Assembly (NCBI GenBank): GCA_036925085.1
Contig: JAUPFP010000015.1
Location: 457,001-521,000 of the forward strand
DNA: 64,000 bases
Source: Brachycybe producta
Taxonomy: Eukaryota; Arthropoda; Diplopoda; Playtdesmida; Andrognathidae
Reading direction: 5' to 3'
Below are positions 511-41,109 of this stretch, in pieces. The notes below the pieces were generated by a model. That model made no database searches, was not told the DNA's origin, and saw only the letters and a list, made by a program, of their open reading frames with translations. The position numbers and the translations under genes were made by a program. Position 1 is the stretch's first letter. Each line of letters starts with the position of its first letter.

Positions 511-784
511 AAACCAGTGTTCTATATATAAAAAGTATTGATGATTCCATGATGATTTCCATTGTATATATTGGAACAGGACTTTTATGAAGTAAATCAC
601 ATAAGTGAATAATAGGCCTATTTTTTAAAATAGTAAAATGTTTTTCATGTCGGATAAATTGAAATTAAAGATTTAACAAGGGATTCAAGGAACCCTATAG
701 ACCTCCATTGCTTTAATATACGCTTTCATATATCAAACAACCAATTTTCTTTCATTGATACATGCGTATGCACATGGTACACGC
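511..784. other. AT-rich sequence, no gene seen
   Basis: No gene, terminal repeat or RNA motif recognised. Confidence 0.5.
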
Positions 785-970
785 ATGTTCGCCAAATTTT
801 TTAACGAATGTTCGCCAAATTTTGACGAATGTTCGCCAAATTTTGAAGAATGTTCGCCAAATTTTTGACGAATGTTCGACAAATATTTGACGAATGTTCG
901 ACAAATATTTGACGAATGTTCGCCAAATTTTGACGAATGTTTGCCAAATTTTTGACGAATGTTCGCCAGT
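785..970. repeat. 21-23-bp minisatellite, about 9 units
   Basis: Tandem units of the form TGTTCGCCAAATTTTTGACG plus AA, 21-23 bp long; eight are full and the last breaks off at 970. Two adjacent units share a CGACAAATA variant, which suggests recent unit duplication. The minus strand is open across the array in all three frames, giving periodic peptides in each, so the open frames come from periodicity rather than coding. Confidence 0.9.
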
Positions 971-1159
971 TGGAACAAACACCAAACAGAAGAAGCGCGA
1001 AATTGAACAACATCTAAATAAATAAAAAACGGAAATAAAATAAGCACTAACTGCAACACACTGAAAAACGCCAAACTGAAGAAGCGCCAAAATGAATAAA
1101 AAAAAAAACTAATGAAATAAATTCTAATTGGAACAGAATTGTTCCAATTCCCCCCATTA

Positions 1160-1490
1160 AGATGGGCACTGGTTTGTGTTCTGTTTTATTCTACAGTATT
1201 ATGTTCTGCATTTTGTGGGTATTTGTTATGTTCTTTAATTTTGTATGTTCTGTTCATTTCGTAAATACGTTTCTATATTTTCTTTTAAAATGTGTTGTTG
1301 TTTTTTTGATTTTGTGTGTGTCTGTATGTGGAAGTGCGTTTTTAAATTGTGTACATGTTATTCTTTTGTGTCTGTAATGTTGTTAACTTGTTATGTTTTG
1401 TTATGTTTTTTATGTCCTGTTTGCATTCTTTGCTTTGAATGCATATTTGTGTGCGTTTCTACTATTATGAATGAAATACCACATTAATGA
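1160..1490. repeat. Degenerate GT/T-rich low-complexity tract
   Basis: TGTTTTGTATGT-like sequence without clean periodicity, resembling the GTGTCACTGTGTGTATTTG tracts at 35.5-36.7 kb and 46.5-46.9 kb. The short Cys/Val/Phe-rich open frames here are composition artefacts. Confidence 0.6.
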
Positions 1491-1544
1491 AAATCAATAA
1501 ATGATAATCTTATACGAGAAACGTTTTTTTTTTTCTTTCTTTCA

Positions 1545-1800
1545 GAACGTCACATGTCCAGTTACTCAAATCTTTCAGGAAACGCAAAAAATCGTCTCCT
1601 TTTCTACATGTACAAAGATAGAAAACCTGAATTTGGAGTGGCTTTTACTATGAGATATGTTCTACTTTGGTAACAAACTAAAAAAAGTATTACATATATC
1701 GAAATCAGCTCAGAAAACTGATTCCAAAACTGTAATAAAATGGGTTAGACCAAAATATGGACATGTGCCTTTTTGAAAGAAAGAAAAAAAGAAACTCCTC
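1545..1800. mobile_element. Dispersed repeat, family CC copy 1
   Basis: Shares long blocks with 31389-31580: GTCACATGTCC near one end, TTTCAGGAAACGCA, GAAAACTGATTCCAAAA, CAAAATATGGACAT near the other. The ends are inverted (CACATGTCC against GGACATGTG), as in a small inverted-repeat element. Confidence 0.6.
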
Positions 1801-1990
1801 CTTGAGAATGACACCTCTGCCGCATGACTTTCGAGCTGATTACAGTTCTACTGAGTTGAATTACATTTAATTACGTGACAAATTAAGAGCAAAATGTCTT
1901 GGAACTGTCAAAATGCCCAAAACATGCTCCACACAACAAAATGCATAGACTGTCTAAACTGTCTAAATTGAAAATTTCATTCTAAGTTAG

Positions 1991-3037
1991 TTACATGTAC
2001 ACAAATGTTGTACCGTCATTCTCAGCCGAAACAGTTGTAGTTTCATTCTTAGGTGATGATGGTGGCACTACATTTATGGTTTTTTCTTCAAGAGACTCCG
2101 AAGAAGACACTGGAGCTGTTTTATTCTTCGAAGACGAAGACAACGATGAAGAAGAAACCGGTTTCTTCGAAGACATTTGTTTAATCTTCGAAGACGAAGC
2201 CGAAGAAGCTGATTTCTTTGGAGATGTTTTACTAATAATTTTCGAAGATGTTTCTTTCAGTAATTTGCGTCCAAGTGCCGGACTATTGGCTGGACTAACA
2301 TTGAGAAGATAATCTCGATAAGGTGCATCGACACGACTTCGAGGTGCTTTCGATCGAATACGAATAACCTGACGGCCACGATGCAAAGCATGTGAGGCAT
2401 GTGGACTAGAAGAAGCCGAGGCAGAAGATTCAGTATTTGCAACATGATTTCTTCTTGTCAAATTCGGTTTTTTATAATTAAAACGAGAGAGATCCTTAAT
2501 TATAGGTCTGGATGAGTTAATGGTTGGAAAAGCAGATCGGATTGCGGAAGATTGTGAGAGTGACGGCGGCGGTGGCGAAGACAACGACGACAAACTCGAT
2601 GAGGCCGAAGAACCGGACGATGGCAAGTAGTAAGAATTATCATGAATGACACTAAACGGACGTCTCGTGTCTCTAGAACCTCGTGACATTACCGATGACA
2701 TCGATGTTGGTGACGAAGTCGAACTGGACGAAAACTCACCCGATGACGATAATGAGATCGGATTAAGTGGCATCGGTGGTGGCCGTCGTCTTGAAAACGA
2801 CAAATCTCCTCCTCCTCCTCCTCTGCCGGACATCCAAGTTGTCGACGAATAATTTAAATCGGACGTCGATCCGTAAAGAATTCTGTCTACTGAATAGGAA
2901 GACGACGACATCGGAGTTCCAAAAGATAAATTACTGACATAAGATGTAGGAAAATCAAATGACATTCCACCCATGTTCATTCTAGGTGAAAATGTTGTTG
3001 TATCGGAATTAATAAATCCACTTCTTCGAAACAACAT
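1991..3037 (-). CDS. Ser-rich basic disordered protein, single open exon, function unknown
   Basis: A 348-residue open frame on the minus strand. The frame extends six codons upstream only through a TTG, so the ATG at 3037 (MLFRRSGF) is chosen. It reads as low-complexity but not simple-repeat protein: very high Ser throughout, a Gly run (SGRGGGGG) at about residue 70, a proline-rich patch (RRRPPPMPLNP), a further SPPPPSLS stretch, a basic segment (RGRQVIRIRSKAPRSR) followed by DAPYRDYLLNVSP, and a Lys/Ser C-terminus (SPKKSASSASSSKIKQ). No signal peptide or membrane segment is visible, so a cytoplasmic or nuclear, largely unstructured protein is inferred. A codon-varied frame of more than 1 kb in AT-rich DNA is unlikely by chance. 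It may be one exon of a longer gene, since the last codons before the stop could be intronic. I do not recognise the family. Confidence 0.65.
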   Translation of the reverse strand: MLFRRSGFINSDTTTFSPRMNMGGMSFDFPTSYVSNLSFGTPMSSSSYSVDRILYGSTSDLNYSSTTWMSGRGGGGGDLSFSRRRPPPMPLNPISLSSSGEFSSSSTSSPTSMSSVMSRGSRDTRRPFSVIHDNSYYLPSSGSSASSSLSSLSSPPPPSLSQSSAIRSAFPTINSSRPIIKDLSRFNYKKPNLTRRNHVANTESSASASSSPHASHALHRGRQVIRIRSKAPRSRVDAPYRDYLLNVSPANSPALGRKLLKETSSKIISKTSPKKSASSASSSKIKQMSSKKPVSSSSLSSSSKNKTAPVSSSESLEEKTINVVPPSSPKNETTTVSAENDGTTFVYM

Positions 3038-3039
3038 TT

Positions 3040-3410
3040 TGAAAAAAATTAACAATTGTTTTTGTTTTTTTGTAGATTTTTGTTTTGTTTTGTTTTTTTA
3101 AACAAAAAAATTGCAATTCGAGTGAAACAAAAACACAAAAAAGTGTCGAGAAATTCAAAAGAGAGAGAGAGAGAGAGATAGCTTGCTTCTGGTTAAATGT
3201 TAAACCACTGAAGGAAGTTTGGAAATATATAAACTTTTCTTTTCGTGTAAAAAAAAAAGAAATGTGACGTCACATACTAAAATACCCTTTACGTTTTTTT
3301 TTTCGGGTCTTCTTCAACAACAACAAAAAAATTCCTACTTGTCTTCTATAACGATAAATATACACTATGCCTCAAAAATAACAATGCTCCAGTCTTATTA
3401 TCAACGTATT
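3040..3410. other. 5' flank of the Ser-rich gene
   Basis: AT-rich sequence upstream of the minus-strand ATG. It contains a (GA)n run at about 3161-3178 and a TATATATT-like stretch at about 3226-3236 that could serve as a TATA box in either direction. No promoter is claimed. Confidence 0.35.
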
Positions 3411-3721
3411 CTTATACCCTCGACACACATGCACAGTTAAATGCATTTAAATATTAAACACGTTCTACAGAGCCCCCTGTGAAGGTCCAATGGACAATAT
3501 GTCAAATGCAATTTATTCAGTTAATAATCTTAAAAATATTCAGTTAATACTTAAATATAATAAAGTATTGACAAAATATTGATTTAGTATTTCAATTTTA
3601 AAATATTAATAATATAGTCAATTTTTATTTGGTGCTCATGTCCTTAACTGGATTCCGTATAATTCACCTAAACACATTTAATTTGAATTCATTTAACTCA
3701 TGTGTGTCGAAGGTATTAGGT
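3411..3721. mobile_element. Inverted-repeat element, family H copy 1
   Basis: Left end TACCCTCGACACACATG and right end CATGTGTGTCGAAGGTA form terminal inverted repeats of roughly 28 bp. The interior (AAATGCATTTAAATA, TTCTACAGAGCCC, TTTATTCAGTTAATAATCT, CATGTCCTTAACT, CCGTATAATTCACCTAAAC) recurs in the same order at 37563-37852. No coding capacity, so a MITE-like element. Confidence 0.8.
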
Positions 3722-4084
3722 GACAAAAGTCTATTTTTTTTAAATTAAATATCTCAAAAATAAATAAAAGCTACACATTTATAACTTAAAGTAAATAAGT
3801 CATGTGTAGCTTTAATTGTTTTTGATATTAATTGGTATTTAATTAAAAAATAAATTATGGCATTTTTTTAAAGAATAAATTATAATTAAATTTAATTTTT
3901 GTAAAAAAAAAACTTTCTTTCAAACAACAAGAAAATATAATTTAAACTTCAGTTTAACTTAAAAAGTTATCGAATTAAAAAAAAAATACTTGAAGTTATT
4001 ATAATTATAGTTAAATTTATATAAGTTTAAATTATATAAATTATTTACTCCAATTTGAAGTTGTTTAGATAAAAAACAGCTGAT
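3722..4084. other. Very AT-rich spacer with a small stem
   Basis: Contains an 11-bp inverted pair, AAGCTACACAT and ATGTGTAGCTT (about 3767-3812). Otherwise A/T homopolymer-rich with no gene seen. Confidence 0.5.
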
Positions 4085-4400
4085 TTTCGAACTCTGGTTA
4101 TTTTCTGCATTTCAGAAACAATACTAAAGAGAAAACTGAAAGTGTGTTAGAAACTAGAACGGTAGCTATGGATCACTTAGTAATATTTTTATGTTGATAT
4201 ATTTCAAAATAAACTTTTTATAGACCCACAATTTAAAAAAAATAGGCCTCCCTATTCCCAAATCGTATCAAAAGTTTCATTTTAAAAGATATCAAACATG
4301 AAAATATCCTTAAATGATTTAGCTACCCTTCTAGTTTTTAAAACACTTTCAAGTTGTCTCTTTATTTTGCACCTGAAGGACAGAATAACGAGAATTTAAA
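4085..4400. mobile_element. TTAA-type fold-back element, family D
   Basis: A copy of the most abundant family in the window. Hallmarks in order: TTTTCGAACTCTGGTTAT, TTAGAAACTAGAACGGTAGC, TCAAAATAAACTTTTTATAG, TTTTAAAAGATATCAA, AGCTACCCTTCTAGTTTTT, TTTTGCACCTGAAGG. The second half is roughly the reverse complement of the first, giving a fold-back of about 300 bp. See 26150-26525 for the best-bounded copy. Confidence 0.75.
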
Positions 4401-4410
4401 GAGAGTGTTT

Positions 4411-4559
4411 AAGAATGCAAGTAGATCCATTTATTTTTTACGTGTAGCTTTAGATGGCGCCACTAGCCCTCCTCTCATAGAAATGTACTGCAGACACTCT
4501 TCTTCCTTTTTATTTCCACGTGGCAAACTTTTAATTGCGTCATGGCTATTTCTACACGT

Positions 4560-4614
<55 letters not shown>

Positions 4615-4806
4615 ACTTATATTGTGTTCTGGGTGTAAGTTTGTCCACGTGCTGATACTGTAATTAAGGTTGTTTTGGACGCTTTTAGAGCTAAAAGGTC
4701 TGCATTTGATTTCAACTAATTGGCACGAGTGTAGTTTGCCACCTATGGAGGAACTGCAGGCGCCATCTACCTTACATTTATACAAGTATTTTTCTATGGA
4801 GCCTGG
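4411..4806 (+). mobile_element. CACGTG-rich repeat, family A copy 1
   Basis: Starts AAGAATGCAAGTAGAT, then AGATGGCGCCACTAGCCC. Carries CACGTG hexamers in CCACGTGGC, ACACGTGCT and CCACGTGCT contexts and ends GGCGCCATCTACC followed by ATACAAGTATTTTTCTATGG. The sub-terminal AGATGGCGCC / GGCGCCATCT blocks are inverted. An expanded (CT)n run replaces the short CTCTCT of other copies. Seven copies occur in the window; the class is uncertain. Confidence 0.85.
4559..4612. repeat. (CT)n microsatellite inside family A copy 1
   Basis: About 54 bases of pure CT. Other copies of the repeat have only 3-8 CT units at this position, so this is a copy-specific expansion. Confidence 0.9.
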
Positions 4807-5527
4807 AATTTTATAATTTCTAAGATATTCAATTTTAAACGATTTTAGTTGCACTACTTTGATACAAGGTTCTGATACATACTGTATACAGTATATGCAT
4901 ATATATCTTTTGGTATAGAGATAGATAAACATTTGGAAAACACACATACACATGGGACATTTAGTGAAAAAGTCCTGGAACTTTGCCTAAGATACATGCT
5001 CCTCATCAACATCATCACCATACAATACTATAGTATTTTCTTTGCCAGTTCCAAGTAAAAAAAAAGTAATCTCAAGTCAGAAGAACCCAAGGTACAAAAA
5101 AAAAACCATCAGACGTCGTGGCAGCTGTTTTAAAAACAACTATATACTAAAAACACAACACCAAGCAATTTTCTTTTTTCTTCTTTTGACATTCCTTTCA
5201 AATCTTAAAGAGATTTTTCTAAAAGCGTGTGTGTGTGTGTGTGGTACTCAAGATAATTACAATGTGGGCCCCATTTCAGATAGATATATACAAAAAAAAA
5301 GTATACAGGACACTCTGAGACACACAAGGAACGAAGCCTCAAAGGACCACTTAGAAATAAGATAACAGTATTAGAAGGAGGAGAGGAGATCCTCTTGTTG
5401 TATTTTGGAAGAAATAACATTAAACCCTTTTGAAATCCAAAAAGAAAACCGGCTTTTTAACCGGTTGTATCTCGAATGTGACATTCTAGGAATCAAGGCC
5501 CACAAGAGTCAACATGAGCAATCAAGA
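4807..5527. other. AT-rich spacer
   Basis: No gene seen. Holds a short (GT)n run near 5228-5242 and A-runs. Confidence 0.5.
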
Positions 5528-5700
5528 ATTAAACTTCGCACTTGAACTTCAATTTGACTCCTCAGAACAGATTTCCAGCACAGAAAATCCCTATTTTATG
5601 GAGTACAGTTAAGAAAAAAAAAAAAAGGTTTTTCTATGTTGGAACCTTGTTCAGAGAGTTCAAGTTGACGTTTAAGTGTCAAGTTGAAATTGTGAATTTC
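5528..5700. repeat. Fold-back repeat, family DD
   Basis: The arms AACTTCGCACTTGAACTTC... and ...GAGTTCAAGTTGACGTTTAA are imperfect inverted copies. Related pieces occur near 7882-7945, 8078-8150, 18950-19010, 19895-19990, 24476-24500 and 24555-24640, all with a TTCAAGTTGAAGTTCAAG-like core. Confidence 0.55.
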
Positions 5701-5788
5701 GGGCTAATTTGTCTAAATTAATGGACTGAAGCAATTCTTGACAACTAAAACAACAAAAAAAATTATTCTTTGTGCAATAAAAAAAGGC

Positions 5789-5878
5789 TGACCAGAGGTT
5801 AGAAAAGAATAAACCTAAAACCCTTGAGGAGGCCCAGTTTTATCCTAATTCTAGGACAACTCTAGCCTCTAACCAGTC
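5789..5878. repeat. Small inverted repeat
   Basis: GCTGACCAGAGGTTAG on the left is an imperfect inverse of CTAGCCTCTAACCAGTC on the right. A similar CTAGCCTCTAATCAGCC occurs near 45720, so this is probably a tiny transposon relic. Confidence 0.45.
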
Positions 5879-5915
5879 TTTTTTTTATTACAAAACGCAT
5901 ATTTATTTTTTGGCT

Positions 5916-6112
5916 TAACACGTCTTAAAGTAGTAGGCAATATTCAAACTGCCATAAAACACTATCATGAAATTCTTTTTTATGTGATTGAAGTTAATAA
6001 TTAATTTGTCGTTGTCATAATGAGAAATTATTAACTTCAATCACATAAAAAAGAATTTCATGATAGTGTTTTACGGCAGTTTGAATATTGCCTACTACTT
6101 TAAGACGTGTTA
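5916..6112. mobile_element. Near-perfect 87-bp-arm palindrome, family I
   Basis: Left arm 5916-6002 and right arm 6026-6112 are reverse complements with one visible mismatch (GCCATAAAAC against GCCGTAAAAC), separated by 23 bases. No other copy was noticed in the window. Such long young palindromes are typical of recently inserted fold-back MITEs; class unknown. Confidence 0.9.
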
Positions 6113-6395
6113 TTGTAAGCAGTCATTGTATTAATAATAAATAAAACTCATGATTATTTTGCACTGAAATCTTTTTTTTGTTTTAGAAACTAGATGAGCA
6201 AATATGACTTTGTTAATCGATTCGAAATTTCAACCTCAAGTTTGGACACAATACATCGAAACAAATAATTTTCTAATAATTAAAAACGTATTTTTTTTTG
6301 GTTATTTTAATGATTATTTATATATTTTTTGTCCTTGTTTTTATAATTTATTTATTCGTTATCATTTTGTGGTCTTATTTTATGGTATTTTCTAG
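6113..6395. other. AT-rich spacer
   Basis: No gene recognised. The 63-residue open frame here is Phe/Tyr-rich and looks compositional. Confidence 0.5.
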
Positions 6396-6790
6396 AGGTG
6401 GGACGAATCTTAAATTTTCTCGAATCCGAATCCTAAAAGGTTATCGAATCCCTCGAATCCTTCATATATGAATCCTGTATTATTCATTAAGAAGATACAA
6501 ATAAATGAATAATAATTTATTAATAATAAAAAACACAGTGTTGCACTCAGGGTCGCCACAAGGTGCTAGTGGTGATCCGTGTTGCAACAATTGCCGGGTT
6601 TTTGTTGTTAGTGAACGCTTCTGTTGGACGTCAATAGAGTTAAAACTAATTTTACCAAAGTTTTTAACAGCTTTTTTAAGGTTAGGATTCGAAAGATTCC
6701 AAAGACGAAAAAATTGCGAAGATTCGAGTTTTCGAATCTCGAATATTTTTTCAAGATTCGCGGGGGATTCCAACAGCCCATCCCAAGTAT
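6396..6790. mobile_element. Inverted-repeat element, family U copy 1
   Basis: Left part AGAGGTGGGACGAATCTTA, CGAATCCGAATCC. Right part CGAATCTCGAATATT, GATTCGCGGGGGATTCC, CAGCCCATCCC. The two ends are degenerate inverted repeats of GGGACGAATC-type sequence. A fragment with GGATTCGTCCCAC lies near 58865-58890. No transposase frame. Confidence 0.55.
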
Positions 6791-7956
6791 TTTCTAACAA
6801 ACCTTCAATTTCTAATGGAGAAAAAAAATCACATTTAATTTAGCAATAATAATAATAAATAAATATATTTACCTAGGGTCAATTTTTGTTTTAATTTGTT
6901 GACAATTACTTTATTAATTTATAAAATAACAAAACTTTAAAGGGGGCCATACTTTCAATTATACAGTAGGTGCCCATAGCCCTGATTTAGCCCCGAGTTG
7001 TTTCTCAGATCCCTTGGAGACTGGAATATATAAAACTCACTGAGAAACAAGAGAAAAAAAAGTTTGAGAGTAAAACCTATTTTCTTCTTCTCTTTCTTCA
7101 AAGCTGAACTTGGAGAAGAAAATGTAATTAGACAAATCTCAAATCTCAAGACTCATCTATCCCCATTCTGTTATTTATCAAGATGAAAGTTAAGGCCAGA
7201 AATTACATGTCGTAATAGTTGTATAGGTCTTACTACACCCTCCTTCAACCCTTCTTCCAATAGACTTCAATGGAAAAAAGATGAAGAAATTTGAAACGTG
7301 TTTTGTTTTAGCTTACGAATGCTGATGTCAGCACAAAAAAAACCTCCACCACCATTCCCCATTTCATCCTATTCCTTCCTCTAACCTCCATTCTTTCAAT
7401 TCATCTTCTCTCTGTCCTAAAATAAATTACATACACAATCAACTGCCAACTCACTTAAAAGAGGATAAAGCATCAATATTATGACGTCATATAACAAGCA
7501 ATAAACAACAACAGAACACACCTATGATTACTTAACCATAAACCATATGACACTAGAAACATAAACATAGTCATTTCATGATCAATTAAGTAACCAAAAA
7601 AAAAAGGGGGGGGGAGTGTTCAGAAATTCTACGTAAGCAGCAGATTGCTATAAATATTTTCCTAACTTGAGAGTAGGAATGAATATGAACATAGGTTAGG
7701 AAGGCCAAGGTCCCACATGCAGAAAAAAATCTACAAATCTAATCTAAATTTCTGTAATATATGTGAGAACCCCTTTAAATACGAAGGAAAACAGAAATGT
7801 CGCTGAAATTTCATTCTGATTTCTATTTTTTTTTTTTTTTTTTTTGCTTTTTTTCACTCATGTGGGATCCAGCCTTAAGCCCGAAATTCAAGAAAAAAAC
7901 TTGGTACTTTAACTTAAAACTTTAACCTAAACCCTCTTGAACACTGTTCTTTACAA
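6791..7956. other. AT-rich spacer with poly-T tract
   Basis: No gene seen. Contains a poly-T tract at about 7827-7844 and a family DD fragment near 7882-7945. Confidence 0.5.
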
Positions 7957-8056
7957 TTATAATTACAATTAGTACTCTGCTAGCAGCCAAATAAGCCTAT
8001 GACAGAGGGACATAAAAGTAAACATGCAGCATTAAGCATTGTCAATATATATACAA
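7957..8056 (-). mobile_element. LINE 3'-tail fragment, family E copy 3
   Basis: Reverse-complement match to the 3' tails of the LINE fragments at 11194-11575 and 22066-22527: ATTAGTACTCTGCTAGCAG, AGCCTATGACAGAGGGACAT, CATGCAGCATTAAGCATTG. Severely 5'-truncated, as expected of target-primed retrotransposition. Confidence 0.75.
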
Positions 8057-8269
8057 AAAATCTTTATTGATCACTATTGAGCAAGTTTTCTTCGGGTTGA
8101 AACCCTCCTCATAGGGTTCAAAGTTGAAGTTCAAGGGCCAAGTATAAATTTAGTTCTAATTGGTTAATTTGTAGTTAAATCAATAGTGATGTAAATGTGT
8201 AGGCTGTATAAATTGAACCTAAACTTGCTTTAGAAACACAACATGAAGAAAAAATTTAAAAAAAATCTT

Positions 8270-8640
8270 GTTAAAAACTAGAATAGTAGCTAAATGTGTA
8301 ATAATGTTTTCATGATGATTGATAATTCTTTAAAAAATAAAATAAACATGTTATCTAAGTTTGGAATTCTGAAATTTCAAGTTGGTCCAAAAACGTGAAA
8401 ATTGGTTTCTCTTTGAAAATGAATCATATTTTTTTTGTTACCTTTACTATTCTACTTTCTAACAAATGCCTTCAATTTCTTCTTAAAATTGCTATTTTTT
8501 TTTAAAAAAAAGGTAGAATTTATTTTTAAAGAAGAAAACAAAGGTGAAATTCTTAAAAAAATTATTTTAAAAGATATTTTCATGAAAAATAAAACTTTTA
8601 GCACATTCGCTTACTAGTCTAGTTTCTAGATATTCTACAT
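8270..8640. mobile_element. Divergent family D fold-back
   Basis: TTAAAAACTAGAATAGTAGC on the left and AAGATATTTTCATGAAAA ... GTCTAGTTTCTAG on the right match the two halves of family D, but divergence is high. An old copy. Confidence 0.5.
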
Positions 8641-9677
8641 TAAGAATAGAACGTCTACTTTAATAATTAATTATATGTCTAAAGTTTTTTTTTAGAAAAA
8701 AAAAAAACTTCGGAAATTTACTTGTGGAGCTGCTACTTTAAATGTTTCATTGGATTTTTTTTTCCAGGCTCACATTCATTTGCAATTCTAAATTATCCAA
8801 AGAAAAGCGGAAATAAGCAAAAATTTCCTTAGAAAAACGTTCAGTTTCTATATTTATAAAAGTAAAGAGAGAAAAAAGAGGTTCAAAGACCCAATTCTCC
8901 AACAAAAATATATTATGTTCAGTTTAGAAGTTTTGTCATTCTTTAAAAAAAACAAGGCGTCAAACTAATTGACACCTTTTTTTTCTGAGTTTTTCGCAGA
9001 TTTAAATGTCTCGAAACAAGTTTTTTAAAAAAAGCCGATTTCGCCATTTTAAAAAAGTTAAAAAGTAATAACCTCAAAATAGGAAATTCCTAAGGCGAGG
9101 ACAGGCAAGACGATTCTCCTCCCCAAAAAAAAAACGAACCCAGAAACTTTCACAATAAAACCACAAATAATTTGTTTGTTTTGTCTAACTTTACAAAATT
9201 ATCTTAAATTGGAAAACATAAAAACCAAATTTAGCCAGTTAAATTAATTTTTTTTTAAAAAAAATATGCAAATTAGCAGGCCAAAAAGAAATAAGATTAA
9301 TTAAAATTTCAATTTGTCTTAATGACTAATTTGCAATTTACTTTTTTTTTTCAAGGAACTGACTCAAAATTGAATGAAACAGAGATAATTATTCAATTAG
9401 AATATACCAAACTCAATTATTCTAGTTTTTTATTTTTTGATAAATTATATTTTTGGGTTTTGTTGTTTCTTCTACTTTAGGTTTATGAATATTTTCCAGA
9501 CTTATTTAGTTAATGCTCATTCATTATTATTTTAATAGGAAGAGTGTTTTTTATGACGCCTGATAGGCGGCAATCAGTCATAGCATTCAGAAGAAAAGAA
9601 AAATTCAAACAATGAAAAATTGAAGTTATAATTAGTTAGAATTCGTAATTTAAAAAGGTATTGATTAATTCATTATA

Positions 9678-9708
<31 letters not shown>

Positions 9709-9830
9709 TACAATGCATTAGGAATTATACATCACAAATCAGCATGTCATGTTTTAACATAAATTAAACATAGTATGTGTGCGTGTGGTTCGTTGTTACG
9801 TGTTTCTGCGTTTTATAAATTTATGTTATT
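8641..9830. other. AT-rich spacer with (AT)n
   Basis: No gene recognised. (AT)n microsatellite at about 9680-9708. Several A/T runs. Confidence 0.5.
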
Positions 9831-9960
9831 GTCAATCCACGCAATCAGTCAATCTGCAGATTGCCTAGACAATCTGCAAAACAAACCAGTCTGCTGCTAG
9901 TGAATCTGCAAAATTCAACACCTAAAATGTATTGAATTTTGCAGATTCAGCTAGCAGTCA
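9831..9960. mobile_element. Family F fold-back, incomplete copy
   Basis: Shares GTCAATCTGCAGATTGCCTA, CTAGTGAATCTGCAAAATT, CACCTAAAATGTATT and TTTTGCAGATTCA with the complete copy at 17252-17437, but lacks the last ~55 bp. Confidence 0.7.
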
Positions 9961-10177
9961 CACCCGTATTGATCTTTGTTTCTAAAACTGTGGTTCGCAG
10001 ACCACCAGTGTTTCGTGGTGGTGTGTCAGCTGGTTCATAGAACGGAAGTTACAAAAATAACATAATCCACTAAGTCAACAGTAACTCACTGTGCTCTAAT
10101 ATGATTAGAACGGACTGTGCCCCCCATTAGGGCCATTACTGACACATATGGCTACTTGCACCAGTCTATGTGACACT
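9961..10177. other. Unassigned spacer
   Basis: Contains a local inverted repeat around CAGACCACCAGTGTTTCGTG. No gene seen. Confidence 0.4.
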
Positions 10178-10366
10178 CATTTAGAAAACGGGACGAACAG
10201 AAGTTGGCTCCGCCCTTTTTATGGCTTTTAATTGGTTGGTTACGTAGTCTGACATCACATGCTCCGCTCTTTTCAATGTCGAACCACACAACAAACCAAT
10301 CAGAAGTTGCCGTTTGTCGTAAAAAGGGCGGAGCCAACTTCTGTTCGTCCCTTTTTCTAAATGCCT
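10178..10366. mobile_element. Snap-back element, family B copy 1
   Basis: Fold-back with arms GACGAACAGAAGTTGGCTCC and GGAGCCAACTTCTGTTCGTC, with inner inverted copies around CATGCTCCGCTC. Flanked by GTCTATGTG at about 10164-10172 and again at about 10369-10377, a possible target duplication. Related copies: 38714-38914 and 63643-63844, with a variant at 53179-53316. Confidence 0.85.
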
Positions 10367-10825
10367 TTGTCTATGTGTAGTACGCCATTTTGAGAAAAAG
10401 TTAGAAAAATATGAATACAGTATATATTATTTATAGCCCCTTTGGTTAAAGAAAACTCAAGACAGAAAATGAGGTCGCCTCACAGTTCGCTCGATATTTG
10501 TAGCCACAGTACAGAGGCCCGCAAGACCACATGTGGTCGTACATGTTATACAAGTTTAGAACCGGTACTGTTAGAAGAGCACTGTACTGAAAATGCGTGT
10601 CATTAATCGCATGTGCCTCTGAGTATAGTCACATGGAAGCATGAAAATCTATACGATGAGAGCAACATGTTTATGACACAATGACATATGTCTTATTTCA
10701 CAATATGTAAATGCTTGTATAGAATATATATTTGTGTGTCATTTATCACAGCATGTGTGGTACTGTTACAGTAATAGGCCCTATGTATATATGCGTGTGT
10801 ATGATATGTTTGATGTATTTCGTAT
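10367..10825. other. Unassigned spacer
   Basis: No repeat partner or exon recognised. Contains ATATATTTGTGTG-like low complexity near 10730. Confidence 0.4.
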
Positions 10826-10930
10826 AGAGTGGAAACCGTTTAACACGAAAGGGCAGAGACCAGAATATATTTTCGTGTTAAAAAAAGAATTTTTATGCTA
10901 TACATTACGCGACCAAATCGACAACAATAG

Positions 10931-11111
10931 CTGACGCCCGGATGGCTTATTGTGCTGCTGGGAGAGAATGGGTTTGAATCCCGGTTGAGGCATGGTTATT
11001 GTGTTTGTCTTTCATAATTTCTCCTTAATTGTTGAGTTGACGTACGACTACGAAGGACAGCCAGGTCATAAAAACACATTTTTCGCCAAATCCGACTCGT
11101 ATGTCGCATCT

Positions 11112-11143
<32 letters not shown>

Positions 11144-11145
11144 TT
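10931..11145 (+). mobile_element. tRNA-derived SINE candidate
   Basis: The head has a pol III B-box-like T-arm, GGGTTTGAATCCCGG (near GGTTCGANNCC), at about 10970-10984, with TGGCTTATTGTGCTGCTGGG about 40 bp upstream in the A-box position. After a ~125-bp body it ends in a (TCA)n run at about 11113-11143. A tRNA-like head, a short body and a simple-repeat tail are the usual SINE plan. Only one copy is visible in this window, so this is a proposal. Confidence 0.55.
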
Positions 11146-11193
11146 GAGCAACTCTGCTCCATGTGGGGGACGTGGATCAGAGAAATAAGAAGG

Positions 11194-11575
11194 CAGGGCT
11201 GAGTTAAGTTTGAAATTGTTTGGAAAAATTACACGTGGTGATTGTCCTAAACCACAGTCAAGTGATATTCACAAAGCCACTATACATGGGCAGGGCTGAC
11301 CACTCTTAAGAAAAATTAGGAGATTTTTGCTAAAGACAGATTCATATTATTGGTCTTCCCCCCCCCCCCTAGAGTTATAAGACAATGGAACTCTTTTCTT
11401 CCTGAGGAAGAAGTGGTGAAGGGGATAATTTTGTTTTCTGGGATTGACATTTGTATATTCATTTTGTTTTTTATATATGTGCATTGTCAAAATGCTTAAT
11501 GCTGCATGTGGACTTTTATGTCCCTCTGCCATAGGCCTATTTGGCTGCTAGCAGAGTACTAATTGTAATTTGTAA
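11194..11575 (+). mobile_element. LINE 3'-end fragment, family E copy 1
   Basis: Nearly identical to 22142-22515: AGGGCTGAGTTAAGTTTGAA, CAGATTCATATTATTGGTCT, a C-run, GTTATAAGACAATGGAACTC, AGGAAGAAGTGGTGAA, ATAGGCCTATTTG, CTAGCAGAGTACTAATTGTA. The conceptual translation contains the W-N-S-x-P-E-E-x-V remnant common at the C-terminus of non-LTR reverse transcriptases. Frame broken; inactive. Confidence 0.8.
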
Positions 11576-11645
11576 GAGACCGAATCGAAAACATATTTCG
11601 TGTTATCCGATTTTGTTTGTTTGTTTTAAACGGTTCTCACTGTCC

Positions 11646-12681
11646 TTTGGTCTCCTATATTTGTGACATATGACTGTGTCACAAATAAAATGATAAAGCA
11701 GAATATATATAGTGCCTATTTTTCATTTTTCTGTGACAATACACAAATGTTGTGACCAGAGGGGCTGTTTTGTATCTTGTCTAAAGCATTTTTTTTATAT
11801 AACCGGAAGTATGCACAGATATGCAAACATTTCCATTTTAAAAAATAAATAATGCTCATTCGTTTTCAAGATGAAAAAACACTCTTTATTTGAAGCTACA
11901 AATAAATGTGTGGGGAGAGAAGCAAAGAAAACGAAATCATTTCAAAGAAAATTTCGTAGTAAAACTTTTTTTTTAAAAAAAGAAAACAACTTATGAATGA
12001 ATGTCATATATTTTAAGGAGAAAAAAAAATTGCATAATTTTCAAACATTTCAACAAAATTCAAACAAGTGACGTTGATGAGGATGATGATGAAATTGCAG
12101 ATGTTTTTCATACAAGAAACCATATTAATGTTTATATAATTTGAATTGCGAGAAGCAAAAAAATAAAATAAAGGATATATTCTTCAAACGAAGCAGAAAG
12201 CATAAAATAAGGAAGAAAAATCTTCTAGTTTATTTGATGATGAATTTCAACAAGGATTTTTTTTTGGTAAAAAAAAAAAAAAACTTCAAGAGAAAAATCC
12301 ATCATCTTATTTATATAAAAAGAAATCCTTAGATTTTTTTTAAGTTTCCCCCCCAATTCATTCATTTTTTTTTTCTTTTTCTTTTCGGTTTGTTTGCAAA
12401 CTTTGAAATCCATGATGAAATGTTATATTCTGCTACTTTGTTCAAAAGTACTACTACTACTATTACTACTACTATGTATATATACAATGACAACAAGGGA
12501 TGATTTACACAAAAGATGAAAGCGAGAATTCGATTAAGCCACTGTGAAATGAAATATTGTCATATACTGAAATAGTTTCTCACCAAAAAGGATTCTCAAT
12601 GCATGAGATGTCATGGGCTCAGTCCCATATCCAAATGGTGCATGTAAAAAGTCTTAAATTTTCAAGCAAACTTAAAGAGAG
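11646..12681. other. AT-rich spacer
   Basis: No gene seen. Holds A-runs, a (TAC/ACT)n run near 12450-12475, and T-rich stretches that create Lys/Asn-rich spurious frames. Confidence 0.5.
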
Positions 12682-12972
12682 CTATCCATAGAAGAAGAAG
12701 AAAAAAAAATACTTGTGCAAATGCAAGGTAGATGGCGCATGCAACCCCCTCCATAGTTGGCAACCTACACTCGTCGCCAATTAGTTGAAATAGAATACAG
12801 CCTCCTTTTAGCTCTAAAAGCGTCCAAAATAACCTTAATTATCAGCACGTGACAAACTTACCCTCAGAACATAATATAAGTGAAGAGAGAGCACGTGTAG
12901 AAATAGCGATGACGCAATTAAAAAGTTTGCCACGTGGAAAAAAAGGAAGATGTGTCAGTACATTTCTATGGA
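12682..12972 (-). mobile_element. CACGTG-rich repeat, family A copy 2 (inverted, truncated)
   Basis: Reverse-complement copy: GGTAGATGGCGCATGCAAC, CACTCGTCGCCAATTAGTTG, AGCTCTAAAAGCGTCCAAAA, then CACGTG three times, ending at TACATTTCTATGG. The distal GGCGCCACTAG end is missing. Confidence 0.85.
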
Positions 12973-14445
12973 AACATGGATAACATTTTATCACATACTA
13001 GATTCTATATCAAATTCGTCATCTGCAAACAGGAAATTCAGTTGAAAGGCTGCATTAGTACACATGCCCCCGATTGCCCAAATAATACTATGAATTCCCC
13101 CTACCCCAAATTATAAGTTTTCTCATGCACAAAAACCTCTGAAAGTAAATTCCATTGTCAAATTACCCTAGGTATACCTCTAGGTTATACTTCTATGTAA
13201 GCTAAACATTTTACATTTTACAGGTACATATCCTTTCAAACCCTGCTGACTAAACCTCGACATAGCCGTTGAAATATGTTCTATGTGAAGCTTGAAGCTT
13301 CAATGAAAGTTTATTGGTAAAACTTCAATTTCAAATATTTAAAATGTTTTAGTCCAGAAAAAAAGCCAAAGAAGGCCTCAATGGACCAAAGATGTGTCCA
13401 AAGATGTTAAAAGAAGAAAAAGATTCAAGAATTTTTAAAATTAAAAAAAAGCAAAAAATAATAATAATTACTCTAAAAACACCTGAAAATGCTTCTGAAA
13501 CACAAAATTAGCCATAATTCTACATATATTATACTGTTTTTATTTGCATATCGCAAAATAGTTTAAAATGGACGTTTTACTTGCGCCACCTTGCAACAAA
13601 AGTTTTATTTTAATAATGTATAAAACCGACATCAAACACCTAAAATTACTTTTGTACTGATGCTCCTTCTCTCTTTACGTTTAAATTCTAATCTAAACAC
13701 CATTTCTTTGAATTATTTATATTTTTTTGTTGGAAAAAAAAAAGACAAGACTTGTTTTTGTTGTTAATAAATTGGGCCCTTGATTGTAAATTAATTGAGA
13801 AACTGTGTCTCGTGATGTGAAATGAAGTGGAGATTACTAACGTTAGAATTTTAACACCGAAACCAGAGAACAACAGAATGCATTCAACACAACATTATAT
13901 AGAGAAGTGGGTTTGGGGGTGGGGGGAGGGGACAAAAATAAAACAACCATCATCATTCATGTCAAAAAATGGTTTGTGACGTCATCAGAATCACTTTCAA
14001 AGTGGGATAACCAATGATATTATGTGTCTGTGTGCGTCTAAATTTAATCTCATACCAAGAATCAACAATATAATTTTATATAAAAATATTTATTAAAAAA
14101 AAAAGTGGTGGGTGGAAATTCAATTTCAGGTGGGGTATTTTTTTCTTCTTATTTGGTTACTTTTTTATGTCTGATAAGAAAGGATTATAAAAAAAAACAC
14201 ACAAAAGAAACAATTTCAGATATTAATCCGCCTCCCTCACATAGAAAATAACGCTTTAATTTAAAGCTAAGCTTAAAATGTCATAAAACACAAAACCTAC
14301 CTTAGTTAAAGTCTATGAATAGTTTTAAAAATTAACGGCAGCTAAATCATTTCCGGATATAGACACTTACCCTAAAGCCAATTTGCCCTAATGCCTATTG
14401 CCCTAAAGGGATGATTGTCCTAAATCCACACACCCAATCATTTCA
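12973..14445. other. AT-rich spacer
   Basis: No gene seen. A G-rich patch (GGGGGTGGGGGGAGGGG) lies at about 13914-13931. Three CCCTAA-like words at about 14372-14416 are irregularly spaced and not telomeric. Confidence 0.5.
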
Positions 14446-14448
14446 TGT

Positions 14449-14610
14449 TGATATCTTTCAAAATAAACTTTTTTATAAACAAAAAAATTAAATAAAATCG
14501 TTACAAAATATAAGTCATTTTGAAACTGACATAAAAAGCTTATTAACATGAAAATACCATTAAATAACTAAACTACCCCTTCTAGTTTCTAAAACACTTT
14601 CAAGTTTTTT
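14449..14610. mobile_element. Family D fragment
   Basis: Interior and right half of the family: TTGATATCTTTCAAAATAAA, TCATTTTGAAACTGACATAA, TACCCCTTCTAGTTTCTAAA, ACACTTTCAAG. Confidence 0.7.
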
Positions 14611-14674
14611 TTTAATACAAAAGTTAATATTTATTAAATGTTACAAAATAAGTTGCCATTTTACAAATATGAAC

Positions 14675-15000
14675 AGCTGATTTTCAAACTTTGGTTATTC
14701 TGCATTTGCTGAGCAACAGTGACTTTTGAGAGTGTGTTAGAAACTAGAATGGCAGGCTGGATCACGTACAATGTAATAGTATATCTTCACGTTGATTATT
14801 TTCAAAATTAACTTTTTATAGACAAAAATTTCAAAAAAATATTATCTGCATAAATTTAGATCATTTTCAAACTCAAAAAGTATATTTTAAAAGATATCAA
14901 CACGAAAATAAACGGAAGTGACTGAGATGCCTTTCTAGTATATAAACTTCAAAAGTACTTTTAAGTTTCTCTCTTTCGTTTGGCGAGAAGATACATGAAG
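14675..15000. mobile_element. Family D fold-back, near-complete
   Basis: CAGCTGATTTTCAAACTTTG, GTGTTAGAAACTAGAATGGC, TTTCAAAATTAACTTTTTAT, TTTTAAAAGATATCAACACG, CCTTTCTAGTATATAAACTT, TTTAAGTTTCTCTCTTTCG. Sits 3' of the Frizzled-type gene. Confidence 0.7.
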
Positions 15001-15159
15001 AATAAACATAGGAGTTTATTCATGGTATTGGCCATGGCTTATTTGTTTGACCCAGAATCCATCCACCATCCAAATTTGCTTATATTTTCATTATTCTGAA
15101 TAGATGCTTCCTTGCAAAGCAACAAAGGCCTTAAAAAACCTACCAAGTTTAATGTTTCT

Positions 15160-15280
15160 AACAATACTGAAAGATACTGTAAAATAGTATGTTAAATTCC
15201 GTTAAGCAACTCATTTACTGTTCTAATTTCTAAAACACTTTTAATTGCACCCTGAATGTTGTTTTTCAAATAGGCCTACA
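15160..15280. mobile_element. Family D right-end fragment
   Basis: Only the TACTGTTCTAATTTCTAAAA ... TTAATTGCACCCTGAA end is recognisable. Confidence 0.5.
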
Positions 15281-15539
15281 TTCTTCTAACCAGAAATTCT
15301 ATATAACATCCTTCATCATTATTTGCAAATTTAAAAATGTTTTCACATAAAATTTACATATTTTTCTAGTTATTACACTGAACAAAACCCTGAAGGTATC
15401 AACTGAAAGTGAAGTTGTTTTAAAGTTCCACTTATCACCTTTGAGATGATTAAATTAGTTAACATCATAAAGAATGAAACACAAAACTGAAGAATATCAA
15501 ACATTACAAATTGACAATTTACGAGTGTTTGTTAAAACG
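15281..15539. other. 3' flank or intron of the Frizzled-type gene
   Basis: AT-rich. No polyadenylation signal close to the stop on the minus strand was identified with confidence. Confidence 0.4.
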
Positions 15540-16637
15540 TCACCACCATTTACCACAAGGTATGTGGCAGTAACTCGAAATATTGGAAAACCACCACCAC
15601 CAAGCATTAGGAGCATTCTTAAATTTATGTTCGTAAAATGTCAACAGGTCATATGAGAAACAAATTAACCTTCTAACAAAGGCGGGATATTCGTGTTGGA
15701 CAACGGTCATCTCATTCTCTTTAGGAGGTTTTATTACCGGAGCGCTCTCTCCAATGCAGATGTCAACTCCGCCGGCCTCTGGAAATTTATTGCAGTCTAA
15801 ACTTTCAGGCCATCGGAATCCGAACTTATTCATAAGGGGTTCGCAACCGTTCCGAGCCGAAAGACAGAGCGATCGGCATGGTGGAAGAGCACGACCGAAG
15901 GTTGTGCACATAGGTGCATACACAGAGCAGATGAAGTGCTGTAAGTCTGGACTACACTGCACTTTAACAAGTGGAAAGAAATGGTGGGCTTCTAGGCCGG
16001 CAACATCCTGGCTCTCGTGGTTCAGTAAATTGGGCATGATAGTCTTGTTGTAATGCAGGTCTTTGCATAAGGGGATCGTTATACTCTGGCAGTTGTCACC
16101 ATAGCGTGAAGACCCGTTAGAGTCGAACACAGGTGATGGCACGAGCTGATGATTACGGTCGTGTGGCTGCTCCTTTCTTCCAGACTGTTCCTGTTCCTGA
16201 GTTGAACTAATGCAGATGTCAAGTCCACCGGCCTCTGGAAATTTATTGCAGTCTAAACTTTCAGGCCATCGGAATCCGAATTTATTCATAAGGGGTTCGC
16301 AACCGTTCCGAGCCGAAAGACAGAGCGATCGGCATGGTGGAAGAGCACAGCCGATGTTGGTGCAAATAGGTGCATACACAGAGCAGAGAAAGTGCTGTAA
16401 GTCTGGACTACACTGCACTTTAACAAGTGGAAAGAACTGGTGGGCTTCCAGGCCGGCAACATCCTGGCTCTCGTGGTTCAGTAAATTTGGCATAATAGTC
16501 TTGTTGTAATGCAGGTCTTTGCATAAGGGGATAGTTATAACCTCACATTTACCATGATGAGCTACGTCCACCTGACTGGCAAAAATTACAATCACAACTA
16601 ATAACAAAATAATATTTGAAGAAAAACAAGTAGCCAT
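15540..16637 (-). CDS. Secreted protein with two tandem Frizzled cysteine-rich domains
   Basis: Frizzled CRDs bind Wnt ligands, and secreted CRD proteins usually modulate Wnt signalling outside the cell. The frame opens at a GTG (16649), but the first ATG is at 16637 (MATCFSSN), giving 365 residues. Residues 9-20 are a hydrophobic signal-peptide core. CRD1 spans C31-C142 and CRD2 C183-C294. Both show the family pattern, with [35 protein letters not shown], a CxxxC pair after PP, and [14 protein letters not shown]2 has the canonical ten Cys; CRD1 has an eleventh (GCALPP, where CRD2 has GRALPP). The two domains are almost identical, at an offset of exactly 152 codons. No seven-pass membrane region or netrin domain follows. 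The last ~45 residues (ending in a WWWW stretch) look like intron read-through, and a weak donor (AAG|GTTAAT, near 15669) could end the exon, so the true C-terminus is uncertain. It could be a first exon of a two-CRD Frizzled or sFRP-like gene. Confidence 0.85.
15754..16078. repeat. Tandem CRD duplication, unit encoding CRD2
   Basis: Nearly identical to 16210-16534 at an offset of 456 bp, including synonymous positions. Differences cluster around the GRALPP/GCALPP site and a few single bases. Confidence 0.9.
16210..16534. repeat. Tandem CRD duplication, unit encoding CRD1
   Basis: Partner of the unit 456 bp to the left. The intervening linker (residues 143-182, rich in Gln, Glu, Ser and His) is not duplicated. 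Confidence 0.9.
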
Positions 16638-16667
16638 TTTTTGAGCCACGATAAAAAAAATCTCTAC

Positions 16668-16707
16668 TTTTTAGCTCAATGAATATCCGAATTCATTGAG
16701 CTAAAAA
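16668..16707. promoter_or_regulatory. 17-bp perfect hairpin just upstream of the Frizzled-type ATG
   Basis: Arms TTTTTAGCTCAATGAAT (16668-16684) and ATTCATTGAGCTAAAAA (16691-16707) with a 6-base loop, 31-70 bases upstream of the ATG on the gene's strand. Such placement would put it in the 5' leader or core promoter. Function is inference only; the structure is directly visible. Confidence 0.6.
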
Positions 16708-17251
16708 ACAGAATGTGATCGCAAGTCACTAAATTCATTTTTGACTTTTGCACCGAATCCAATGAGTCTAATGGGGGTCGTGATATCTAACTATACAAAA
16801 TACCAATTGCATTATGGATGTTTGTGATTCTCTACAAATTTACTCCATAAATAATGTATATTTTTAAACTGTTACTTAGTATAACGAATCCAAAATTAGG
16901 CACTTCATAAGTAGTAATTAATACATGTAATTTAATATGAACAGATAATAATCATCAAGTGCAGTGCAAAGAGCACAATGCTTTGTGAAAAAAAAATTAT
17001 ATTTCAAACTCTGGATAGTCACCATTTTCAAAACAACTTTTAAGTTTAGACTTTAAAAAGTTTAACTTTAATTCAACAAAGTAACTGAAGCAAGTTAAGC
17101 TGATATCTTTAAAAAAAATAAGCTTTTTATAGCATTATCTTGCTTTTGTTTATGAACAACTTACAATAGAAGCCAAAAACACAGCAAAAAATGCGATTGT
17201 CTTGCTTGCATGATGATGCAGTTACTGTAGACCTACAGTATATATGTTACT
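16708..17251. other. Upstream AT-rich spacer
   Basis: No exon seen. Possible family D remnant (TTTCAAACTCTGGATAGTCA) near 17002. Confidence 0.45.
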
Positions 17252-22700: not shown

Positions 22701-22910
22701 TTTAAAAAATTACAAAAATTATAGAAAAATATATTTAAAAAAAGCTCAAACAAGGAAGGAAGTTCTCGACTTAAAAAAAATACTGCCAAATATTCTCAAA
22801 AAATATATATCCCCTTTTCCTGTTTTGCCTTTTATATTTTATAGAATAATATATTTAAGTAAATAATAAAAAAAATACAAATAAATCTTGGAAGGTTGTT
22901 TTTTTCTTAC

Positions 22911-23040
22911 CTTCACACTTGAGTCCCTGTCGAAAAAGGCCGTAAAGAAGGGAACCGCAGTGGTCACAGAAAGTTGGGCTCATGTAATTGTGCACTTTAA
23001 ATCGATGTGGTACATCAATTTTAAATCGTTCTCGAAGATA
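22911..23040 (-). CDS. PKC coding exon 8 (C1B domain, last exon found)
   Basis: 130 bp. Acceptor TTTCTTCTTCAG, donor GAAG|GTAAGAAA. Encodes [40 protein letters not shown] and KCE. The residue after SLL is Tyr, where vertebrate novel PKCs have Trp. The expected continuation (C-x2-C-x4-H-x2-C) is not in the next 22.9 kb by eye. Confidence 0.96.
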
Positions 23041-26000
23041 CTGAAGAAGAAAAAGACAAGAAAAGAAAACAAATTCTCTCTCTTCTTCTTTTTTGTATCT
23101 AATATTGGCAGAGGGAATTTTTTTTAAAGTTTTCAATTTTCAATAAATGTAAAAATATCTCTAGAAATATTTATTTATATAACTTGAGTGCTTGTTGTAT
23201 ATGTTTGAAATATTACTCGTATTATTATTTTATTTCTAGACAAAAAAAGATATTATAAAAAATTCCATTTTTACATTAACATTTAAGAATCTATTCCTTA
23301 TATAATATTGCACTCGAATAAACATTAAAGAAGAAAATGGTTTGTTATTTCAGGTTATTTTAGGTCACCAGTCTTGCATTTTGCAAACAACTTTGATAAA
23401 CTTAAAAAAATGTTATAGAAACTAGAAAAGTAACTCAATCATGTACATATATTTACATACCATGTACAAGTCGCTATCTTTTTTTTTAAAAAAAAAATAA
23501 GCTTTTAAAGCTTGCCGCAAACGGGAAAACACGATTCCGATCGAATCGGATCGGAACAATTAGGAATACTTTGATAACAAGCATTTAAATAGAGCCCCGC
23601 AGACGTCGCGTTTTTCATCCGAACCAAGCTAGTGTGCAGCGCTCCATTGAAATCTTTGCTATCATGATATTCCGATCCGATATAATGGACGGCAAGCATT
23701 TTGAGTTTCAAAATGGCCAAATTTCTAAGTTTTTAAATGTTTTCTTCGGTTTTGAAGTGAAACAAAAATTGCGACTTTGAAACTATCATAAATTAAAATG
23801 TTCTTCCAGTTTCTATTCTAGTTTCTAAAATACTTTAAACTTCTTCTTAATGCATTCGCAGACGAGCGATTTTTAGTGGTCAAGATAGACTGTACAAACT
23901 GGTTGGTGTGTGCCCAAAACTGACCACTTGAGTAGACTCTATACGAACACTTTTGACGTTCGTTCAACGACACTAGGAACACTTTTCCAACCACTGGCAG
24001 TCTACAGGATTTCGACCACACGTCGACCACTTTTTGTAGTCCATCTCGATCACTAAAATTCGCTCGTCTGTGAACGACATTAATGTTGCTTAAAAATGCA
24101 GAATAATCAGTTTTATTCCATTTTTTCTTCTCTTACATTTGCATATTTAGCAACGGATACTTTTAAAACGTCTTCAAAATTAGATTTTTTTTGTTAAAAA
24201 GTAATTGAATATTTTTTAAAAGCATAAAAACCTTTCAATTTTTTAAAACATTTTCATAATAATAATAATAATAATAATAATTTAATAAAAGATCTACAGA
24301 CACATTTATTTTTTTCATTTAACTTTTTATATTCTTAATGGAAAATGAACTACAAAATATAAATGTGTTAAAATAAAATGAGTAAAGTAACGCAATGTTT
24401 CAATTTTTCTGGTAGCAGCTACTGGCACTTACGAGTCCTGACTGAGGCCCATATTCAATAATGAAACTTATCACATGAGAGCTTGAACTTGAACCCTTAG
24501 AACACGGATCAAACATAATGTTAACCCTCTTTTTTTTTTTAAAAATAATCTATAAAAGAGGATTTTTCTATGTTGAAGCTCTGGTCAGAGGGTTCAACTT
24601 GACGTTCAAGTACTAAGGTTGTTTTTTCTCTTGAATTCGTGCCGAAAGCCTACCATTATTGATACTATTTTTTATGGAAACCACAATCAATTTTCATTTT
24701 TACCTGAGTGGACTGAGATTCTTTTCCAGATCCAGGACATTTGCCCAAAAATTTATCATGACACCTTTTATGGACGGCACATTGACATTCTAGAAAAATA
24801 TATTAAAATATTAAGATAAAATAATTACAATTATCAAATTTCAGACTTAGAAGTTAATTTACCTTGGCACTGATATCCCTGTTTTCCAAAACCCCTGAAG
24901 AAAAAAAAAATCAATCAATTTACACAATTGTAATTTGAATGAAATTCAAATTACTTTGATTGAATTGTAAAATTATTAAATATAGATTTAAAATAGATTC
25001 AAAATATTTAGAATTTTAATTTTATTGTTTTGAATAAATTATAAAACAAAGGATTGTGATAAAACATTAAATTAAATAAATAACTAATTTAAATTGTATC
25101 ACTTTTGAATACACCTTACCATAGAAATTCTCGACAAAAGGCGCAGAAAGTTGGTTGGCGAAAAAATTTGGCAACAAATTTGTGACCTTTGACCGCATGA
25201 ACTTTCTGGTGTTTGATGGCTCCTCTTCTTCTTGTGATTCCTCCAGTTGACCCCTTCAGGTCATCACTCAATGTAGGAACTAAGAATTACAAAATGACAT
25301 TTGCAACTGAAAGTGGACAATGAAATTGAAGTCTAGATTGAAGTGTTTTTAGAAACTAGAAGCGTAACTTGTATCACTTATGGTTATTTTCATGTTGAAA
25401 TCTTCTAATTTCATTTTTCACTTAAAAAAAATCGCACAAAAACGATTTAAGAGTTGGAACACACAGGCGACTTTAAGTGTAGGGCCACGGTTGTGTTCTG
25501 GTCGCGCGACAGGTCGCAATGCTGTGTGTTACATGGATTCTAATGTAGATGACCACGGTTGTCACAGGTCGCAAACATGGCCATCTACACATTAGACTCT
25601 ATGGAACATAGCATTCCGACCAGAACGCAAGCATGGACAAAATGAGGTCGAAAGGTCGCTGAGCTGTCGTCGCAATGTATTTTTTTTATGTAAATACGAC
25701 ATCAACTTTGGGACACAGTTAAAAGTCGCCTGTGTTCCAAAGTTGCCGTTCTTCCACGTGTTCTCTGTCATTTTTGTGACAAGACATTACTATTACATTG
25801 TTAGAACATTGATAAAATTACATTATCACTGATGTCGCGTTTATAGGCGGTTTCCTTTTCACAATTTTTGTGTGCATTTTAAATGCATAAAATTGCAATT
25901 CACATAAATCCGAGAAAACTTGACCACAGAATATGCCTATCGGTACTATAAACGCTTCATCATATCATACATTAAACGACACAAACAATACAAGTAAAAA

Positions 26001-40872: not shown

Positions 40873-40946
40873 GCCTCTGTGGCGCAATCGGTTAGCGCGT
40901 TTGGCTGTTAACCGAAAGGTTGGTGGTTCGAGTCCACCCGGGGGCG
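40873..40946 (+). tRNA. tRNA-Asn (GTT), copy 1
   Basis: 74 nt. Acceptor GCCTCTG pairs CGGGGGC; D-arm GGCGCAATCGGTTAGCGC contains the A box; anticodon GTT in CTGTTAA; T-arm GGTGGTTCGAGTCCACC is a good B box. No encoded CCA, as in eukaryotes. The anticodon stem carries a T (TTTGG) giving a G-U pair, unique among the copies. Confidence 0.95.
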
Positions 40947-41035
40947 AAAGTTAATATTTTACCATTTTCTTTATAAAAAAAAAGAAAAGGACACTTGACC
41001 CGGGCTAAAACAATTAGAAAACTTCACAAGCAACA

Positions 41036-41041
41036 GCCTCT

Positions 41042-41092
<51 letters not shown>

Positions 41093-41109
41093 GAGTCCAC
41101 CCGGGGGCG
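41036..41109 (+). tRNA. tRNA-Asn (GTT), copy 2
   Basis: 74 nt with the consensus sequence of the array and CCGGGGGCG 3' end. Preceded by CACAAGCAACA rather than CACGTGCAACA. Confidence 0.96.

Follow-up and report, generated by a model that had tools for sequence, protein, structure and literature searches.

A single open frame in the DNA analysed here encodes two Frizzled CRDs in tandem, both of which group with the Fz1/2/7 receptor encoded in the same genome. The reading that we favour, at a probability of about 0.55, is that of one gene that would descend from a duplicate of Fz1/2/7, without the seven-pass part and with the CRD doubled later, and whose product is predicted to be a secreted Wnt modulator. 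The window, i.e., the whole stretch of 64,000 nucleotides that was analysed, corresponds to positions 457001-521000 of contig C15 in a genome of 295 Mb and 442 contigs. The frame lies on the minus strand, with an ATG at 16637 (A at -3, G at +4), 365 codons, and a stop at 15542-15540 (Table 1). The Pfam Fz profile (PF01392) matches it in two stretches and scores 224.3 bits, the cut-off being 32.1 (E 3.6e-67), which rules out a chance frame, and Fz CRDs are the only Pfam domains recognised in it. Hydropathy is maximal at the very N-terminus (2.53, residues 1-19). After residue 40, the highest value of the scan is 1.22 and falls within CRD1, so that, judged by hydropathy, the frame shows no membrane-spanning stretch. 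Structure prediction from the single sequence was uninformative (mean pLDDT 39.9). Just upstream of the start codon there is an inverted repeat of 22 nt (16663-16684 and 16691-16712, the arms being 91% complementary and separated by 6 nt).

Table 1. Features of the double-CRD frame (positions in the window).
Feature	Position	Strand	Extent and basis
Double-CRD protein frame	15540..16637	-	365 aa plus stop; 3' end provisional
Signal-peptide-like N-terminus	16560..16637	-	residues 1 to about 26; hydropathy and start context
CRD1	16209..16547	-	residues 31-143; Pfam Fz; matched by FZD7 chains, best E 1.6e-52
Linker	16092..16208	-	residues 144-182 (39 residues); unrepeated; contains an NGS sequon
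CRD2	15753..16091	-	residues 183-295; Pfam Fz
Tail	15543..15752	-	residues 296-365; outside the Fz matches; no recognised domain

The two CRDs agree at 104 of 113 residues and at 319 of 339 bases. An independent detection of DNA repeats recovered two copies of 300 nt, 95% identical, with a spacing of 456 bp, a multiple of three. Outside the edges of the CRDs, the copies match at only 5 to 12 bases per 30-base bin. CRD2 has exactly the ten conserved cysteines, and CRD1 has these ten and an extra one. Both carry an N-x-T sequon after the second cysteine, a feature that PMC4669655 gives as common to Frizzled receptors. These results bear out the preliminary description, made from the letters alone, of two near-identical CRDs in tandem within one frame that opens like a signal peptide and shows no transmembrane domain. 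That description had named an assembly duplication of one CRD as one finding that would undo it. Such an artefact is unlikely: the repeat unit is the CRD alone, 20 of the 339 bases differ, the linker and the flanks are single, and, when the genome was searched with the complete protein, six places came up among the best candidates scored, with a full-length match at this locus only. The two long plus-strand frames opposite the CRDs were discarded as the antisense of the repeat; one of them was scanned and gave only a match below the Pfam cut-off.

We inferred a tree of 12 CRDs (the two described here, five others from the same genome, and five from solved structures, with no sFRP3/4 row), in which three of the nine inner branches are strongly supported and for which the program issued a long-branch warning concerning Sizzled and Fz9/10. 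CRD1 and CRD2 are sisters (support 100/99), and the pair joins the Fz1/2/7 of the same genome (97/98); FZD7 is not a member of this group and sits in an unresolved part of the tree. A phylogeny of both CRDs had been proposed in the preliminary description, which matched the domains to Fz1/2/7-like and 5/8-like motifs: the tree and the FZD7 matches uphold the first part of this assignment but not the second, since both CRDs group with Fz1/2/7 and with each other and not with Fz5/8. Neither CRD falls on the sFRP side of this tree, where Sizzled, on a long branch, groups with a CRD on contig C34 (93/94); we call the C34 domain sFRP-like because Sizzled is its closest relative. The identity to the CRD of Fz1/2/7 (contig C1) is 91/113 for CRD1 and 89/113 for CRD2, and the identity to FZD7 is 73/113 and 72/113, respectively. 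The match to Fz1/2/7 begins at residue 21, ten residues N-terminal of CRD1, so CRD1 seems to retain the ancestral N-side of Fz1/2/7. The N-flank of CRD2 differs from that of CRD1. Both observations fit an internal duplication in which CRD1 holds the old N-side.

Among the best candidates scored, the search of the genome for Fz CRDs gave 10 places, two of them at this locus. The search for the seven-pass part of Frizzled (PF01534; 12 of 12 candidates scored) gave nine places, on C1, C16, C14, C127, C4, and C2, and none on C15. Four receptors have a CRD and the seven-pass part in one frame: Fz1/2/7 on C1 and, named by their closest solved relatives, Fz5/8 on C16, Fz4 on C127, and Fz9/10 on C14. 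The matches on C2 are two weak places, and the three on C4 are pieces of one gene split into exons, which we take to be Smoothened; the search thus detected a seven-pass gene in exon-split form. The absence of any seven-pass match on C15 agrees with the preliminary description, which had seen no such domain, and leaves the possibility of a 5' exon of a Frizzled receptor without support. Potential ligands are represented by 39 Wnt matches, found exon by exon on seven contigs; the Frizzled and Wnt genes mark the genome as that of an animal. A brachiopod is reported in PMC11414264 to have the same set of four Frizzleds, along with one sFRP.

The divergence between the domains provides information on the order of events. 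Between CRD1 and CRD2, dN is 0.039 and dS 0.152 by NG86, and 0.040 and 0.137 by YN00, i.e., nonsynonymous change is about a quarter of synonymous change. Between the CRDs and Fz1/2/7, dS is 1.3-1.4 by YN00, 2.2-2.7 by maximum likelihood (ML), and undefined, hence saturated, by NG86; for CRD2 it is 1.84 by LWL85. Unless gene conversion kept the copies similar, these values place the split from Fz1/2/7 long before the doubling of the CRD. We found no sign of recent conversion between CRD1 and CRD2, as their ten synonymous changes are scattered along the domain. Four of the nine residue changes lie within 7 residues, a weak clustering that was reached by 729 of 20,000 random draws. With Fz1/2/7 as the outgroup, three of the nine are derived in CRD2, one is derived in CRD1, and five are unpolarised. 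Taken at the level of sequence, this suggests an early split from Fz1/2/7, a later internal duplication of the CRD, and purifying selection between the copies. The same data bear on whether the locus is a relic left by a duplicated Fz1/2/7, of which a CRD fragment was doubled internally and never made a working protein. The lack of a recognised domain in the tail would fit a relic, as would the longer branch leading to the two CRDs in the tree (0.22 versus 0 for Fz1/2/7). We consider it improbable, since the frame has stayed open despite the long divergence from Fz1/2/7, the ten cysteines and the eight groove residues discussed below are retained, and the ratio of nonsynonymous to synonymous change between the copies is low.

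The most serious alternative concerns the 3' end: the frame could belong to a longer gene as its first large exon, with a tail that splices to distant exons for a netrin or other module; the product would then be an sFRP with two CRDs or a protein of mosaic type. We regard this as possible, with appreciably lower odds than a self-contained gene. The coding signal (G+C and codon usage) is weak over the last 45-65 residues, from about residue 301, as judged with a codon model that was trained on four Frizzled frames only and discriminates weakly, several blocks within the CRDs also being near zero. Because of this drop, the true 3' end may lie elsewhere than at the stop at 15540, and the tail holds two candidate splice donors (AAG/GTTAAT near 15669 and CCG/GTAATA near 15737). 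The three coding-strand frames were scanned over 24.8 kb downstream (positions 742-15540 of the window, which omits its first 741 bases, and the 10 kb past the window). This stretch gave weak sub-threshold matches only and none above the Pfam cut-off, which speaks against a longer gene, although short exons were possibly missed. Genome-wide searches likewise gave neither a netrin (NTR) nor a Frizzled seven-pass match on C15, and no NTR was found in the 24.8 kb. The same searches found no NTR within 9.9 kb of the sFRP-like CRD on C34 either. The NTR search is therefore one without a positive control, and netrin exons in this genome can be distant or missed, a point in favour of the longer gene. 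An sFRP in particular is disfavoured by the CRDs themselves, which are Fz1/2/7-like and not sFRP-like. Among the frames scored downstream, the highest coding score belongs to a serine-rich frame of 368 aa at 1991-3097 (minus strand), which has no Pfam match and is probably a separate gene.

The residues that line the ligand groove have been conserved in both domains. The eight acyl-groove residues that PMC6333880 names for FZD7 are identical in CRD1 (8/8) and in CRD2 (8/8), and the tyrosine aligned with Tyr-106 of that source is unchanged in both. A difference lies at the entrance of the groove, at position 85 in FZD7 numbering, which the adjacent Phe aligns with Gln-75 of FZD2 in PMC6333880: the residue is Gln in Fz1/2/7, FZD7, and CRD1, and His in CRD2, where it might weaken the domain. 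The extra cysteine of CRD1 is another point against the reading that we favour.

If the locus is a self-contained gene, its history would have had two steps. The genome's own Fz1/2/7 would have been duplicated and the copy would have lost the seven-pass part; later, a second CRD would have been gained through an in-frame internal duplication. The product, most likely secreted, would bind the lipid-modified Wnts of Fz1/2/7 and keep them in solution. At high dose it would be predicted to antagonise signalling, and at low dose it might carry Wnts or enhance their effect. Two linked CRDs should offer greater avidity or serve as a ready-made CRD pair; the preliminary description had suggested that such a protein could act as a bivalent Wnt trap. 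A more specific proposal, which we hold to be rather doubtful, takes up the crystal dimers described in PMC6333880, where the CRDs of FZD5, 7, and 8 form a helical dimer whose two grooves join as one U-shaped cavity. Both CRDs would fold together in this manner and take one Wnt acyl chain through the joined groove, asymmetrically, with CRD1 at the head of the chain and CRD2, with His for Gln, at its tail. Such a protein would be a natural sequestering unit of one Wnt to two CRDs and would make the CRD-dimer model testable. More generally, because its two CRDs are naturally joined, the protein is a tool for asking how many Frizzled CRDs, one or two, a single Wnt engages, which the structural review PMC6333880 leaves open.

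Binding to Wnts is not the sole function on record for these domains. PMC6747125 states that CRDs can serve lipid-mediated dimerisation instead, which counts against a Wnt ligand here. The protein could also be secreted and act on something else, as a carrier of free fatty acids, which CRDs bind according to PMC6333880, or as a protease inhibitor like Sizzled, an sFRP for which PMC9437010 reports inhibition of BMP-1; we give this little credence, as the two CRDs are near kin of Fz1/2/7, itself a Wnt receptor, and have the same groove residues, and it is the C34 domain that groups with Sizzled.

Secreted CRD-only and multi-CRD proteins are already known. As far as the literature search reaches, what is new is a two-CRD protein of Fz1/2/7 origin without another recognised domain: the open-licence text of PubMed Central yielded, among the matches listed, no secreted protein made of two Fz1/2/7-type CRDs alone, which is weak evidence. 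The Fz1/2/7 receptors (FZD7 and the gene on C1) share the CRD sequence, the ten cysteines, and the groove residues, but have one CRD and a seven-pass part where this frame has two CRDs and no seven-pass part was found. FzCRD-1 of Platynereis is described in PMC4669655 as having a signal peptide, a well-conserved CRD, and no complete netrin domain, and its authors speculate that it binds Wnts; it differs in having one CRD, related to sFRP3/4. PMC5778778 presents the sea urchin sFRP-1 with a signal sequence, tandem CRDs, and neither netrin nor transmembrane domain; together with Dkk1, this protein antagonises Fzl5/8-JNK signalling. It has four CRDs, related to sFRP3/4, and an Ig domain. Fz4-v1 of Xenopus and human (PMC4077065) is also a secreted CRD from a Frizzled receptor, with the difference that it has a single CRD and is a splice variant of the receptor itself; in Xenopus, the same source reports it as a biphasic Wnt modulator that both raises and lowers signalling. 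Fz4-v1 and the sea urchin sFRP-1 are precedents for the modulator reading. Corin has two Frizzled domains per protein, with complementary Wnt specificities predicted, but it is a serine protease anchored in the membrane that also carries LDLR repeats and a scavenger receptor domain (PMC9138375, PMC6747125). None of the domains of the Corin type (trypsin-like protease, LDLR, scavenger receptor, or anchor) is present in the frame, and none was found above the cut-off in the 24.8 kb downstream. A prawn protein with "two Frizzled domains" (PMC3555924) looks, from its description there, like an ordinary receptor with a CRD and a seven-pass part. The interest of the locus is that one genome shows how a Wnt receptor gene could have become an apparent soluble Wnt-binding protein, with the CRD alone kept and then doubled.

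The window contains other elements besides this frame. The plus strand carries a head-to-tail array of nine tRNA-Asn (GTT) genes at 40873-42248, one every 162 bp or so, and the minus strand a partial phorbol-ester/diacylglycerol-binding C1 domain at 22858-23139. Translated stretches of the form RQLEIGT...WLRPFYD occur on both strands at 63550-63922; similar ones lie beside the sFRP-like gene on C34, and they look like a dispersed repeat. Elsewhere in the genome, there are several copies or pieces of COX1. The one on C442 has ten TGA and no TAA or TAG within its frame, the pattern expected of an animal mitochondrial code, and further pieces lie on C17. The families PF14830 and PF16915, typical of molluscs and annelids, matched neither this genome nor the control genomes and so carry no information on its group. 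The 22 Mb contig C1 holds, at 12697416-12698753, another COX1-like sequence, almost complete and with one TAA, which is probably mitochondrial DNA inserted into the nuclear genome.
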